A stretch of DNA of 64,000 nucleotides from an uncultured Chitinophaga sp. (GTDB lineage: Bacteria > Bacteroidota > Bacteroidia > Cytophagales > Cyclobacteriaceae), in assembly GCA_902168205.1 (NCBI GenBank), contig CABHOK010000017.1:1-64000 (forward strand), given 5' to 3'. Positions 3,835 through 7,993 of this stretch are shown in pieces. The notes beneath the pieces were generated by a model, which worked only from the letters and a program-made list of their open reading frames with translations, searched no databases and had not been told where the DNA came from. Position 1 is the first letter of the stretch. Each line of letters begins with the position of its first letter. The translations under genes were made by a program, and so were the position numbers.

Positions 3835-3887
3835 TTTGCACGTTAACGATTAATACTGATATTTGTCTATCGATTTAGTAGACAAAT
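3835..3887 (+). promoter_or_regulatory. Promoter A with 27-bp palindromic operator
   Basis: TTTG at 3835-3838 and GATATTTG at 3858-3865, separated by 19 bp, match the Bacteroidota promoter form (TTTG, 19 bp, TAnnTTTG) apart from one base in the -7 box. A perfect inverted repeat, ATTTGTCTA (3861-3869) and TAGACAAAT (3879-3887) around a 9-bp centre, covers the -7 box and expected start site. Its core, CTATCGATTTAGTAG, recurs at two other promoters in this window and in variant form beside an Rrf2 regulator gene. Placement over the -7 box implies repression. Confidence 0.7.
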
Positions 3888-3914
3888 CAATTCTCACCAG
3901 ATTGGTTTTATACA

Positions 3915-4006
3915 GAAGGGAGTAGAGACTAGGCTCAGCGATCCCCTAGCAACCTATCAACCGCAGGTTGAAAAGGTGCTAATTCCTACCAATAAAAAAA
4001 AATTGG
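3915..4006 (+). promoter_or_regulatory. SAM-clan (S-box) riboswitch
   Basis: The RNA would have a stem CTAGG (3929-3933) with CCTAG (3945-3949), the conserved CTAGCAACC element after it, a perfect hairpin TCAACC-GCA-GGTTGA (3957-3971), and the nearly invariant S-box string GGTGCTAATTCC (3975-3986). These are the core ligand-binding elements of SAM-I/SAM-IV type riboswitches. The peripheral P4 region is reduced: CCAAT and ATTGG could form a small A-loop hairpin at 3989-4006. There is no following T-tract terminator, so control of translation of the short ORF beginning at 4029 is the likelier mechanism. Subclass is uncertain. Confidence 0.75.
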
Positions 4007-4028
4007 AACTATAAAATTTTTAACCAAC

Positions 4029-4118
4029 ATGAAACACACAAAAAATTTCTCCGTTCGTAACAGTATGTACGCCCAGGCCATCAACATGAATTACTGTATG
4101 AACAACTGTTGTTGTTGA
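4029..4118 (+). CDS. 29-residue Met/Asn/Cys-rich peptide ending CCC
   Basis: An ATG 23 nt after the riboswitch opens a 29-codon ORF whose product starts MKHTKNFSVRNSMYAQ and ends NYCMNNCCC directly before TGA. It has four Met, four Cys and five Asn, with three Cys codons (all TGT) as the last three. Its position between an S-box and a dioxygenase/ATP-grasp gene pair makes chance unlikely. Two readings fit. One is a leader peptide whose translation through Met and poly-Cys codons senses sulfur amino acid supply, as known for poly-cysteine upstream ORFs of mycobacteria. The other is a precursor peptide modified by the two downstream enzymes. No signal peptide or known family is recognised. Confidence 0.6.
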   Translation: MKHTKNFSVRNSMYAQAINMNYCMNNCCC

Positions 4119-4330
4119 TTTCGCCTTTTCAAAAATCCCCTATAGAAATTTTAATGACTTGCAAACACTGCATCCTCGCGCGGGGAATGCACAGGGAATA
4201 TTTTGTACCGCAAAAAACAAGCGTATGAAAATGAACTGTTTCCATATACTATACCGATGTTGATGAGCACTGAATTCATCACACCCTTACTAAATATATA
4301 CTTATACGTCCACCTTAACATTGAACGATC
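4119..4330 (+). other. Leader spacer with hairpin between short ORF and dioxygenase gene
   Basis: This 212-nt gap contains a hairpin at 4169-4191 (TGCATCC pairing with GGGAATGCA around a GC-rich loop) and two very short ORFs (4188 and 4226, 13 and 12 codons) that are not convincing. The hairpin could be part of an attenuation mechanism linked to the Cys-ending ORF. No T-tract follows, so it is not a standard terminator. Confidence 0.3.
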
Positions 4331-5179
4331 ATGGCTTCTTATAAAAAATTCACATTCGAAGGTACATTAACAACAGAACAAATTGAGTTCTTTCAAAAGA
4401 ACGGCTTCATTCACTTTGAAAACTATGCGTCACAGGAAACTGTTGATACTATTATTAACTCTACCGAGCAGGTGCAACGCCAGTGGGTAAAATCAAATGT
4501 TCAGAAAGTAAATGGTGTGCCGATCAAATATGGTACAGATGAAAATGGTGATACCATTGTACAACGTTTTGCATTTACCAATCAACACAGCGATGCCGTA
4601 AGAGCATTCGCCAACAACCCGGCTCTGCAGGCATTAAAAGTCTTAATGCCGGAAGGCGCACGCCTCGGTCTCGAAGAGAAAGATGGTGTAGTATTCAATC
4701 ACTATGTCAATACAGAAGGAAGTAATTTCTACCACATGGGCTGGCATACCGATAGCGCACGTGATATATTCTACGGTAAGAAAGTAGCGCCTATGTTAAA
4801 CATCGGCTTTTACCTGGATGATTCTACAGCCGATAAAGGCGGACTCCGCGTTTTGCCCGGCACCCATAAACAAGGACTGTGGGATTTACTCTTCCGAAAA
4901 AAATACTACATGAATAACTATGGCGATAAAGACGAAGTATTGGTAGAAGCAAAAGCAGGCGACCTCGTTATTCACGATGGCAGAATATGGCATCGCGTGG
5001 CGCCATCGCCACTGACCGGTGCAGCCAGTCGCAGAAGAGTAATGTATATACCGATGATCGTGGGTAAGTATAAACCTAAAACGGAGCAAAGCACAACACC
5101 GCTATACCTGCACTTGCTGCCACTGGTAGGAAGTAAGAAACATAAAAATCTTATTCCGGCATTCCGCAAGGCTGCCTGA
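4331..5179 (+). CDS. PhyH-family Fe(II)/2-oxoglutarate dioxygenase
   Basis: A 282-residue protein with the double-stranded beta-helix signature of phytanoyl-CoA dioxygenase-like enzymes. The iron ligands are visible as the HxD pair at H139/D141 (MGWHTDS) and a distal His at about 221 (GRIWHRVAPS). Arginines at about 234-236 could bind 2-oxoglutarate. GGLRVLPGTHK is the usual strand before the distal His. Such enzymes hydroxylate or oxidatively cleave small molecules or peptides in the cytoplasm; the substrate is not evident. Placement under a SAM riboswitch and 41 bp before an ATP-grasp gene links it to sulfur metabolism: either oxidative release of sulfur from an organosulfur compound or modification of the adjacent Cys-rich peptide. 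Confidence 0.85.
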   Translation: MASYKKFTFEGTLTTEQIEFFQKNGFIHFENYASQETVDTIINSTEQVQRQWVKSNVQKVNGVPIKYGTDENGDTIVQRFAFTNQHSDAVRAFANNPALQALKVLMPEGARLGLEEKDGVVFNHYVNTEGSNFYHMGWHTDSARDIFYGKKVAPMLNIGFYLDDSTADKGGLRVLPGTHKQGLWDLLFRKKYYMNNYGDKDEVLVEAKAGDLVIHDGRIWHRVAPSPLTGAASRRRVMYIPMIVGKYKPKTEQSTTPLYLHLLPLVGSKKHKNLIPAFRKAA

Positions 5180-5220: not shown

Positions 5221-6156
5221 ATGTTCACATTTTTTGAAAGACCGGTCGGCATTATATACGGCCACCCTGAACAATATAATCCCTTGTTTGAAAAGCTGCT
5301 GACGCGGGGAATTCCCTATGAAATAATAAATCCGGCAGATCACCTGTATGATCCTGCCCAATATGAAGTGCCCTATAGCCTCGTGTTCAACGACATGAGT
5401 TCACCGCCTTACCTGGCGCACAACGCACTGGGTATTGCTCAAACCGTAGAATATGTAAAACATGTGGAAAAGGTAAGTGGTGTACACAACAGCAGTCAGG
5501 TTGTAAACGGGTCGCGCGTTACGGAGATTATCAGTACCCGGTCGCGACAACTGGCCCTGTTCGCTTCGCTGGGTATACCTTTTCCGAAAACACGCATCGT
5601 GAGCAGCATTGACCAGTTACTGGCCGCCAGCAATGAACTTCGCTTCCCAATCATTATAAAGAGTAATGGCATCAGCGATCCTGCTGTTACCAGGCGCTTT
5701 GAAAGTGCAAACGAACTGGTGAATGCCCTCGTAAAAGATGAACTGCATTTACAAAACGATAAGTCATGGCTGGTGCAAGAGTATATCCGGCCCAAGGGCA
5801 ACCATATCAACCGCGTTGAGATTCTGAATGGTCGCGTGCTCTATGCTGTTAAAATATACCATGCCGGTGACGAACAGGAGCGCTGGCCGATTGAAGTTAA
5901 AGCGAGTGTATTTGCACCATCCCTGGAAATTCTGAACACGCTGGAGAGAATAGCGCATGCAGCTTTGATCGATACCGGCAGCATCGAATATGTTACCGAT
6001 CGAAAAACAAACCAGGTATATTTCTATGCGATCCGCCCGCATACAAGTTCACGCAGCATACATATTGAAGGCATTGATTTTAATCCGCTAGATCACCTCA
6101 GTCAATACCTCGAGCAGCGGTTGCAAAAGATAAGAGAGATCGCGCTTACCATTTAA
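5221..6156 (+). CDS. ATP-grasp superfamily ligase
   Basis: The 311-residue protein has an N-terminal alpha/beta domain (about 1-95; GIIYGHPEQYNPLFEKL) followed by an ATP-grasp fold. FPIIIKSNG supplies the phosphate-anchoring lysine, SWLVQEYIRPKGNH the hinge region binding adenine, and EYVTDRKTNQVYFYAIRPHT the Mg-binding end. This layout is like RimK/GshB-type carboxylate-amine ligases, which join an acyl phosphate to an amine or thiol. It follows the dioxygenase on the same strand by 41 bp and almost certainly shares its transcript and riboswitch control. Possible substrates are an amino acid, a thiol compound or the short Cys-ending peptide. Which one cannot be read from sequence. Confidence 0.75.
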   Translation: MFTFFERPVGIIYGHPEQYNPLFEKLLTRGIPYEIINPADHLYDPAQYEVPYSLVFNDMSSPPYLAHNALGIAQTVEYVKHVEKVSGVHNSSQVVNGSRVTEIISTRSRQLALFASLGIPFPKTRIVSSIDQLLAASNELRFPIIIKSNGISDPAVTRRFESANELVNALVKDELHLQNDKSWLVQEYIRPKGNHINRVEILNGRVLYAVKIYHAGDEQERWPIEVKASVFAPSLEILNTLERIAHAALIDTGSIEYVTDRKTNQVYFYAIRPHTSSRSIHIEGIDFNPLDHLSQYLEQRLQKIREIALTI

Positions 6157-6177: not shown

Positions 6178-6229
6178 TTGCATATAAAGTATCGTTACTT
6201 ACATTTGTCTATAGATTTGGTAGACAATA
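6178..6229 (+). promoter_or_regulatory. Promoter B with the same operator on its -7 box
   Basis: TTG at 6178-6180, a 19-bp spacer and TACATTTG at 6200-6207 match the Bacteroidota promoter consensus exactly. The inverted repeat TTGTCTA (6205-6211) and TAGACAA (6221-6227), again with a 9-bp centre, begins inside the -7 box. The core CTATAGATTTGGTAG (6209-6223) matches that at 3867 in 12 of 15 positions. The gene served is the exporter at 6506. Confidence 0.7.
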
Positions 6230-6422: not shown

Positions 6423-6509
6423 ATGAAGCTTCACCGTTTTTGTTTTCATATGTTCTTTCGGGTTGAGTACATTTATACATTCTTAGTTTATCACGCGCCC
6501 AACATATGA
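6423..6509 (+). CDS. Possible 28-residue upstream ORF overlapping yeiH start
   Basis: An ATG at 6423 opens a 28-codon ORF (MKLHRFCFHMFFRVEYIY and onward) whose TGA overlaps the exporter start codon as ATGA at 6506-6509. This overlap is typical of translational coupling. The peptide is hydrophobic and aromatic with one Cys, not Cys-rich. It may be a coupling leader ORF or chance. Confidence 0.25.
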   Translation: MKLHRFCFHMFFRVEYIYTFLVYHAPNI

Positions 6510-7783
6510 GTACTGCAACACAGACCTTAAGCGAAAAAAAAGGATTTGTATTACATGAAGACTGGACAGCCGTAGCGCTGGGAGGTATCACAATTCTTTT
6601 TTCACTTCTCTGGTTTATTATACCAACACCGGCATTCTCCTGGAAAGAAGGAAACGACATCACTGAAAAAATATTAGCCAGTGAAAATCTCTTCAAGATC
6701 GGTGCGCAATTCCTCTATAGTTTCGCGATTGCTATACTGGGAACGCTGTTAACCGGCAAACCTGTAAAAAATATGCTCGTTGTTTTTCCGGTGCTATATA
6801 TACTTACGGTAATAGCCGTAGCACTGGCCGGGAACAGCGCGATAAAATCATTGAACCTGGAAGCTGTTATCTTCAGTCTCTCCATCGGTTTACTCATCAG
6901 CAATACGCTTCCGCTTCCGCAGTGGTTTCGTTCGGCACTCTCTACTGAATTATTTGTAAAGACCGGGCTCGTGTTACTCGGCACCGGAGTTATTTTCTCC
7001 GATATACTCAAGGCAGGTGGTCTCGGTCTCATTCAGGCACTCGCGGTTGTAGTGAGCGTTTGGTATTTCGCATACTGGATCTGCAAGAAGCTAAAGCTTG
7101 ATGAAGAGTTAACCATGATGATCTCCAGCGCAGTTTCCATCTGCGGTGTATCGGCTGCCATCGCTACGGCCGGTGCTATACAAGGTGATTCTAAAAAGCT
7201 CTCGTATGTTATATCATTGGTACTGATCGTTGCTATTCCGATGATGATCTTCATGCCCTATATCGCGAACTACTTTCACTTTCCGCAGGAAGTTACGGGC
7301 GCATGGCTCGGGGGTAGTATTGATACAACGGGTGCGGTAGTGGCTTCCGGAACGCTCGTAGGTGAAACAGCACTCAAGATCAGCACGATCGTTAAATTTT
7401 CTCAAAACGTTTTGTTGGGTGTTGCTGCTTTCGCCATCAGTATATATTGGACGTATACTGGTAAAGATCAGGCTGATGGTAAAGTAACCAAACCATCGCT
7501 CGGTGTTATCTGGGAGCGCTTCCCTAAATTTGTGATCGGCTTCGTTGCTGCCTCACTCCTTTTTTCATTCGCATTAAGTGCAGACGCCGTGAGCAGTGTA
7601 AAAGAAAGTTTAAAGAGTATACAAACACTATGGTTTGTGCTGGCCTTTACAAGCATCGGGCTTGAGACTAAATTTTCAGACCTGTTTAACGCCAATAGCC
7701 GGAAACCTTTATACGCTTTTCTTATCGCCCAGGGTTTCAACATCATTATTACGCTGATTGTAGCATTCCTGCTGTTCAGCTAA
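6506..7783 (+). CDS. YeiH-family (UPF0324) putative sulfate/sulfite exporter
   Basis: A 425-residue inner-membrane protein with about ten hydrophobic helices and the family's conserved features: the SNTLPLPQWFRSAL region, FVKTGLVLLGTGVIF, a glycine/alanine-rich SICGVSAAIATAGAIQ segment and GAWLGGSIDTTGAVVASG. UPF0324/YeiH proteins are often found near sulfur genes and are described as putative sulfate exporters; substrate proof is limited. Here it has its own promoter bearing the shared operator and a structured leader. A role in moving sulfite or a related anion released by the upstream dioxygenase is an inference from context. An intrinsic terminator follows at 7838. Confidence 0.85.
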   Translation: MSTATQTLSEKKGFVLHEDWTAVALGGITILFSLLWFIIPTPAFSWKEGNDITEKILASENLFKIGAQFLYSFAIAILGTLLTGKPVKNMLVVFPVLYILTVIAVALAGNSAIKSLNLEAVIFSLSIGLLISNTLPLPQWFRSALSTELFVKTGLVLLGTGVIFSDILKAGGLGLIQALAVVVSVWYFAYWICKKLKLDEELTMMISSAVSICGVSAAIATAGAIQGDSKKLSYVISLVLIVAIPMMIFMPYIANYFHFPQEVTGAWLGGSIDTTGAVVASGTLVGETALKISTIVKFSQNVLLGVAAFAISIYWTYTGKDQADGKVTKPSLGVIWERFPKFVIGFVAASLLFSFALSADAVSSVKESLKSIQTLWFVLAFTSIGLETKFSDLFNANSRKPLYAFLIAQGFNIIITLIVAFLLFS

Positions 7784-7868: not shown

Positions 7869-7923
7869 ACTATTGTCCGTTAGGCAAAAAATTCTACAAT
7901 ATTTTCATAAAATTCTTTTAAGT

Positions 7924-7956
7924 CTATTGATTTAATAGGGATTACTCCTAGCTTTG
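7924..7956 (+). promoter_or_regulatory. Promoter C with operator on its -33 box
   Basis: TTG (7927-7929), a 19-bp spacer and TAGCTTTG (7949-7956) fit the Bacteroidota promoter consensus perfectly. The operator CTATTGATTTAATAG occupies 7924-7938, so here it covers the -33 rather than the -7 element. The adjoining AATAGGGATTA is shared with the site upstream of the peroxiredoxin at 47439. It serves the TonB-dependent receptor starting at 7994. Confidence 0.7.
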
Positions 7957-7993
7957 CCAAAAATCTACCAAAGCTATAGACTTAAACTGCTAT

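Follow-up and report, generated by a model that had tools for sequence, protein, structure and literature searches.

Riboswitches and leader-peptide attenuators have mostly been described as separate solutions. A stretch of 64,000 nucleotides from an uncultured Chitinophaga sp. (contig CABHOK010000017.1, positions 1 to 64,000, here referred to as the window) raises the question of whether one can be built onto the other, because an apparent SAM riboswitch is followed there, within a few nucleotides, by a mini-ORF closing with consecutive cysteine codons. The original prediction was that a single transcript may carry two stacked sulfur sensors, of which the first responds to SAM and the second to the charging of Cys (or Met) tRNA. 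Are both parts what they seem, how widely do they occur together, and how might the first act on the second?

Elements of an S-box had been predicted at positions 3929 to 3986, and these turn out to be the core of a full-length match to the SAM-I family RF00162 (Table 1). The match scores 68.7 bits against a gathering cut-off of 44.4 (E 6.3e-14, cmscan), which assigns the element to the SAM-I class and answers the call for a covariance-model check. The sequence also agrees with the predicted mini-ORF of 29 codons at 4029, with its several Met codons (codons 1, 13, 20, and 24) and three terminal Cys codons; Cys stands at codons 23, 27, 28, and 29, the ORF ends TGT TGT TGT TGA, and 11 nt separate its start codon from the end of the riboswitch.

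TABLE 1 Coordinates of the leader elements and the genes behind them, counted from the first letter of the window
Feature	Position	Strand	Remarks
SAM-I (S-box) riboswitch aptamer, RF00162	3905..4017	+	cmscan, model 1-108, full length
P1 3' strand of the aptamer	4010-4017	+	reads TATAAAAT
Leader ORF	4029..4118	+	29 codons, ATG start, TGA stop; product MKHTKNFSVRNSMYAQAINMNYCMNNCCC
Spacer, leader stop to first gene	4119..4330	+	212 nt
PhyH-type (phytanoyl-CoA dioxygenase family) oxygenase, first gene after leader	4331..5179	+	282 aa
RimK-like ATP-grasp protein	5221..6156	+	311 aa; 41 nt past the dioxygenase gene
YeiH-type membrane protein	6506..7783	+	Pfam PF03601, E 1.4e-49

Behind the leader lie genes for a PhyH-type oxygenase (Pfam PF05721, E 6e-20), a RimK-like protein (PF08443, 23.5 bits against a cut-off of 21) and a YeiH-type membrane protein, after which a TonB receptor gene comes next on the + strand. 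The YeiH-type protein reaches 81.3 bits against TIGR00698, under the cut-off of 232.6; the NCBI name of this family is putative sulfate export transporter, and the gene is possibly part of the same sulfur locus as the leader. Such family matches are suggestive of a sulfur role for the operon genes, with the role of the PhyH-type oxygenase unproven.

Two further elements were seen around the riboswitch. Upstream of it, at 3862 to 3887, is an inverted repeat, TTTGTCTA-N9-TAGACAAA, whose 17-base core has further sites at 6208 to 6224, 7923 to 7939, and 7964 to 7980 (the last on the − strand), with 2 to 3 mismatches, upstream of the YeiH and TonB genes. These four window sites compare with 0.49 expected, and four were reached in 1 of 100 shuffles; an exact copy of the core precedes another riboswitch of the source genome, on contig C3, and is found in same-genus relatives. 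The repeat is perhaps the operator of a sulfur-responsive transcription factor. Shortly after the leader stop, the block ATCCCCTAT (4135 to 4143), most bases of which are kept in relatives, resembles GATCCCCTAG in the aptamer (3940 to 3949), and it is possible that this block competes for pairing with the aptamer AGGGAG.

Searched in seven same-genus genomes, the window region matched in six, the source genome included, and the orthologous leader was present in three relatives, one of which has the same DNA here as a record named Ohtaekwangia koreensis, making Ohtaekwangia the probable genus of the window. Over the four genomes the leader ORF measures 90 nt with no indel and its terminal NCCC-stop is invariant, while the other peptide positions vary and the spacer behind the ORF has acquired several indels. 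Conservation of the ORF and its terminal Cys codons had been proposed as a check, and in the aligned DNA both are kept in the three relatives, which retain the riboswitch and the start of the dioxygenase gene; together with the covariance-model hit, this means that neither condition set for refuting the prediction came true. This is the form expected of an attenuator: a brief reading frame, conserved among relatives, whose final part has a string of Cys codons.

The source genome has four SAM riboswitches, three of which precede a poly-Cys ORF; the fourth, at metH, has none. Besides the window leader, the poly-Cys leaders are on contig C3 (tail CCCCC) and contig C14 (tail MCNACCCCAYCCC). From just upstream of the riboswitch to the riboswitch end, the C3 leader has 82% DNA identity to that of the window, because of which the two look like copies; their ORFs have little in common except the start and the Cys tail.

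For a census of the family, we took 60 genomes of 60 genera and read all 150 leaders behind the 150 best-scoring riboswitches, each leader counting once irrespective of relatedness. A leader was counted as poly-Cys when its ORF had at least three Cys, with CC, in the last 15 residues, a rule set after the first examples. By this rule 55 of the 150 carry a poly-Cys leader ORF and 95 have no tail, and a poly-Cys leader occurs in 37 of the 58 genomes that have a riboswitch among the 150. The 100 leaders that are not metH leaders by a motif rule include 80 with an ATG-started ORF of 10 to 75 codons at the riboswitch end, and in 63 of these 80 the ATG lies at +6 to +10. CCC is found in the last 15 residues of 44 of the 80, compared with 0.06 on average, and never more than 1, over 200 rounds of dinucleotide shuffling; the tail of the leader ORF exceeds chance. 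Homotriplets in the leader ORFs are likewise those of Cys (45, against 2 of Ile and 1 each of Asn, Lys, Ser, and Phe), and Cys accounts for 30.8% of the last 12 residues versus 1.6% of the rest (78 ORFs of at least 20 residues). Among non-Cys residues, the share of methionine is 12.9% over the last 12 positions and 1.8% elsewhere (53 poly-Cys ORFs of at least 20 residues), which makes the wording "Cys (or Met)" of the original prediction apt.

Coming from the other side, a riboswitch-free search of 30 loci sampled from CCCC-stop places in the 60 genomes found no poly-Cys mini-ORF without a riboswitch: two loci are mini-ORFs, both behind an already listed SAM riboswitch, four others have an ATG and sit in open stretches of 305 to 1004 codons in another frame, and 24 have no in-frame ATG. 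Four leader peptides compared with curated families had no family in NCBIfam, and their only two Pfam matches (E about 0.2) were taken as chance.

What genes follow? Gene classes were defined as protein clusters over the same set of 150, with the gene start placed at the first ATG of the open frame, which calls at least one, L095, too early. No poly-Cys leader was found in the metH group (0/52), and 32 of the 50 genomes with a metH riboswitch carry a poly-Cys leader elsewhere. O-acetylhomoserine (OAH) sulfhydrylase and cystathionine-type PLP enzymes have one in 32 of 67 cases, with 35 lacking it, and all leaders of ferredoxin (6/6), NirA-type nitrite/sulfite reductase (4/4) and OsmC-like genes (3/3) are poly-Cys, as is one of three in an alpha/beta-hydrolase group that we take to be metX-like; the remaining poly-Cys leaders belong to smaller gene groups, one being without a gene call. 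A family scan of individual genes named an OAH/OAS sulfhydrylase (L090), a YfhL-type ferredoxin (L110, with an O-succinylhomoserine sulfhydrylase match under its cut-off), a nitrite/sulfite reductase (L134, the name NirA itself falling under the cut-off), a uroporphyrinogen-III methyltransferase of the siroheme pathway (L149) and a sulfur-transport protein (L183). As for an attenuator, the leader set stands upstream of sulfur or Cys supply genes, the exceptions without an evident sulfur link being L119 (Na+/H+ antiporter type), L192 (SusC/RagA receptor) and L003 and L173 (unclassified proteins). In the main, then, the tail goes with genes that bring sulfur in and not with metH, a gene of methyl transfer.

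The riboswitches themselves differ in the 3' strand of P1, which reads TATAA or GATAA by a simple text match, made post hoc, that misfiles a few (L131). Within the 150, poly-Cys ORFs follow 48 of the 81 TATAA-type riboswitches (46 if only the first ATG is taken), 2 of the 62 of GATAA type and 5 of the 7 of other types; GATAA-type riboswitches stand before metH and before some genes with a hairpin and T-run. A second Cys/Met-tailed mini-ORF was observed between the first ORF and the gene in L149 and L152 (NirA-type reductase), one ending CCMCCVCCCML and the other having MMCCCM within its last 15 residues. Such second ORFs occur in 2 of 53 spacers versus 0.08 per shuffle round.

To look beyond the family, we scanned 84,980 species, each represented by one genome, for the combination of an S-box 3' core with an ATG and a CCC-stop spaced at defined intervals, which yielded 64 records. 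An in-frame ORF runs from the ATG to the CCC-stop in 54 of the 64, compared with 31 of 402 shuffles, and RF00162 scored over its cut-off in 15 of 18 records checked with Rfam, those not over the cut-off being L200 (Ewingella), L210 (Testudinibacter) and L229 (a Bacteroidia bin). Confirmed records come from Ohtaekwangia (Cytophagales), Mucilaginibacter (Sphingobacteriales), Salegentibacter (Flavobacteriales) and Phaeodactylibacter (Saprospirales), and also from Nafulsella and Gillisia, presumably of the Cytophagales and the Flavobacteriales, respectively. One more, L233, is from a metagenome bin labelled Rickettsiales, a label that is perhaps wrong. In three further families poly-Cys tails are less frequent, at 5 of 30 (f42), 3 of 21 (f3) and 0 of 28 riboswitches (f55, where one of the 28 is below the cut-off). 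In a class-wide search of 295 genomes, the 30 loci with the highest scores, a biased sample, include one with a tail, and 28 of them are of the GATAA kind. Many Bacteroidota appear, from these sequence searches, to place a SAM sensor right before a Cys-ending mini-ORF, and the idea of two stacked sensors, SAM first and then Cys (or Met), gains support from the recurrence of the same pattern before other sulfur genes across the phylum.

We consider it probable that this arrangement is a two-stage sulfur gate with AND logic, in which the sulfur genes would be on when SAM is low and Cys or Met is low as well. With plentiful SAM, the aptamer would close its P1 helix. The 3' strand of P1 lies mostly 6 to 11 nt upstream of the leader ORF start, so that ribosome initiation would be blocked; SAM binding should keep ribosomes out because P1 ends beside the start codon of the leader ORF. 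With SAM low, the leader ORF would be translated, and just ahead of the stop the ribosome would meet consecutive Cys codons, in many cases interspersed with Met. Given ample charging of Cys-tRNA (or Met-tRNA), it would finish and leave, and downstream expression would stay low; if charging is poor, it would stall on the tail, what becomes of the spacer (median length 120 nt, from leader stop to gene) would change and the sulfur genes would be expressed. For this output step, relief of Rho-dependent termination has a slight edge on two alternatives, an intrinsic terminator and a start codon hidden in structure. That P1 blocks initiation, that ribosomes stall on the tail and that stalling raises expression we infer from sequence. 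A fuller scheme, on which we are evenly divided, is a three-input AND gate for sulfur-incorporation genes in several orders of Bacteroidota, with the SAM riboswitch admitting ribosomes, the tail reading both Cys and Met charging, metH left under SAM alone and a second ORF adding a stage in some sulfite-reductase leaders.

The last step was sought in the spacers, of which only those of 40 to 280 nt entered the pairing and terminator analyses. Terminator-like sites were called in 4 of 51 spacers versus 3.2 in shuffles by an insensitive scan, which found them in 5 of 52 GATAA-type leaders (0.7 in shuffles), and a simple scan of the window spacer found no terminator-like site. A classical trp-type attenuator, which calls for an intrinsic terminator, finds no support in these counts. 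C exceeds G in 48 of 51 spacers and in 20 of 52 GATAA-type leaders; this bias fits Rho, and it may also reflect base composition, because the bodies of the leader ORFs are likewise C-rich and G-poor (23.1% C, 13.6% G). Relief of Rho termination also sits uneasily with the common expectation that ribosome stalling increases such termination in front of the ribosome instead of reducing it. The Cys run and the spacer pair at an average of 0.48, versus 0.47 in shuffles, so no general antiterminator is seen; duplex energy between the two shows a slight excess over shuffles (mean z −0.67), and the folds of the spacers are more stable than those of shuffles (mean z −1.17).

These data bear on a possible, if doubtful, alternative that keeps the same two sensors and differs from the gate set out above in its last step only: the leader RNA would hide the gene start, and the stalled ribosome would open it. 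Translation attenuation of this kind is reported, in the excerpted text of PMC13236596, for cysteine genes of M. smegmatis, and a structured spacer with two compensatory pairs is found in six of our leaders. In these six (L004, L054, L074, L079, L179, and L182, of which L182 precedes an OsmC-like gene and the other five OAHS-type genes) there is a common RNA fold behind the leader stop: a conserved AGCAAC located past the stop pairs with the final Cys codons, and the compensatory pairs belong to another hairpin. Over 41 leaders, however, the last 30 nt ahead of the gene start show less pairing than their shuffled counterparts (unpaired 0.62 to 0.71 versus 0.52 to 0.54, the shuffles evening out local base composition), which would speak against a hidden start unless an alternative fold covers it. 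In the spacers of 12 loci, including L004, L054, L179, and L182, a search of Rfam (E up to 1) showed no second known RNA family, and two sub-threshold matches, to a microRNA and a bacterial small SRP model, were taken as chance.

Spacer length separates leaders with and without a tail. Among leaders with a gene call, a start at 0 to +13 and an ORF of at least 18 codons, two or more tail Cys are present in 52 of 59 whose spacer exceeds 35 nt, compared with 1 of 13 in which the ORF ends at most 35 nt from the gene (down to an 11-nt overlap); Fisher's test gives P 3.8e-8 with relatedness ignored. Five of the seven long-spacer exceptions have Met in their last 15 residues (two of these also one Cys), another has a single terminal Cys, and L142 has neither Cys nor Met. 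In 11 of the 13 short-spacer leaders (L131, L144, L150, L045, L138, L123, L106, L124, L115, L046, and L143), the tail has no more than one Cys and the ORF stops −11 to +25 nt from the gene. The sequence of short-spacer, tail-poor leaders suggests SAM control by translational coupling, and the whole fits two outputs, plain translational coupling for ORFs adjoining the gene, and attenuation by Cys sensing for those set apart from it by a spacer.

Could the leader ORF merely relay the SAM signal, for instance through coupling or Rho shielding, with the Cys tail a device for pausing or termination that senses no Cys? The leaders whose ORF ends −11 to +30 nt from the gene do fit coupling, 12 of 13 having fewer than two tail Cys, but the near confinement of the tail to the longer spacers makes this reading unlikely. 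Generic pausing, moreover, needs no Cys or Met in particular, whereas the tail is specific in its amino acids and mostly accompanies sulfur genes.

Less probable again, and in our view quite improbable, is a sensor in the nascent chain, whereby the Cys peptide would bind metal or become oxidized and arrest translation, reporting redox or metal status and not charging. At least three C-terminal Cys could ligate metals, and Met is enriched as well; yet the ORF bodies are unalike, the genes behind are mostly those of sulfur incorporation, and at the stop codon most of the Cys would still be within the ribosome exit tunnel. Chance, or a base-level artefact in which GTT repeats are kept for RNA pairing, has next to no probability and is refuted by the shuffle and frame counts: the window Cys codons do fall in a TGTTGTTGTTG repeat, but of 82 leaders 47 have CCC in the ATG frame, none in the other two forward frames and one in one antisense frame, and the 55 poly-Cys leaders mix 188 TGT with 106 TGC codons and use all three stop codons. 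With CCC confined to the ATG frame and TGT and TGC mixed, it is codons and not a base repeat that have been kept.

Parts of the proposed gate have close counterparts. Canestrari et al. are said to have described mycobacterial poly-Cys leader ORFs in 2020, leaderless ones by the title of the paper. Mycobacterial leaderless ORFs start at the transcript 5' end; in the window, a 113-nt riboswitch stands 5' of the leader ORF on the same strand, which would argue against a leaderless ORF. Poly-Cys leader ORFs were reported in 2005 at cys and cbs genes of Mycobacterium, P. acnes, and B. longum, in an account whose authors, as excerpted, suggested Rho and saw no conserved terminator hairpins (PMC1262725); such ORFs of Actinobacteria figure in PMC13236596 as well. 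The actinobacterial ORFs and ours, to the extent of these excerpts, are alike in being short, in carrying a Cys run beside the stop, in lying upstream of cysteine or sulfur genes and in having no conserved terminator hairpins; ours differ in the SAM-I aptamer ahead of the ORF, the Met in the tail and their occurrence in Bacteroidota, and the excerpted actinobacterial texts name no riboswitch. Similarly, the uORFC-8-2 motif upstream of cysS in Rhodobacterales, read as ribosome-mediated attenuation, has a leader ORF with tandem Cys codons (PMC8632094); unlike our leaders it has two Cys codons and a terminal U run as for an intrinsic terminator, and the excerpt names no SAM riboswitch.

Other systems join an RNA sensor to a second device, here again compared from excerpts. 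The Salmonella mgtA leader combines a Mg2+-sensing riboswitch with mgtL, an ORF with Pro codons (PMC6460261), and is thus also an RNA sensor together with an amino-acid-rich leader ORF; the ligand and the amino acid are others, and mgtL bases join the sensor pairing, whereas the Bacteroidota ORF begins beyond the aptamer, at a nearly constant interval. Contiguous T-box and SAM riboswitches in Bacillota likewise couple SAM sensing to the sensing of tRNA charging, except that tRNA is sensed by an RNA, the T-box, and not by a translating ribosome (PMC12452182). In SAM-I riboswitches that act on translation and carry the ribosome site within P1, the P1 3' strand lies at the ribosome entry site as it does here, but the start protected is that of the adjacent gene and not of a leader ORF (PMC2258182). 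At Sinorhizobium metA, where a SAM-II riboswitch is followed by AUG1, a terminator, and AUG2, the start codon nearest the riboswitch is, as here, not the protein-making one (PMC9373788); that system differs in its riboswitch class and its in-frame start codons, and its excerpt describes no Cys-rich leader ORF.

Among the matches listed from the open-access literature, with subscription papers mostly outside, we found no description of a SAM riboswitch joined to a poly-Cys ORF. Here the riboswitch seems to act directly on the codon at which the attenuator peptide starts, such that one sensor gates the other. If true, this would explain how sulfur uptake is tied to both SAM and cysteine in these Bacteroidota, and the natural variants (with a tail, without one, and doubled) would be useful for studying how RNA logic evolves. 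Set beside the known systems, both parts of the device are familiar already, and their stacking and wide use in Bacteroidota appear to be new.
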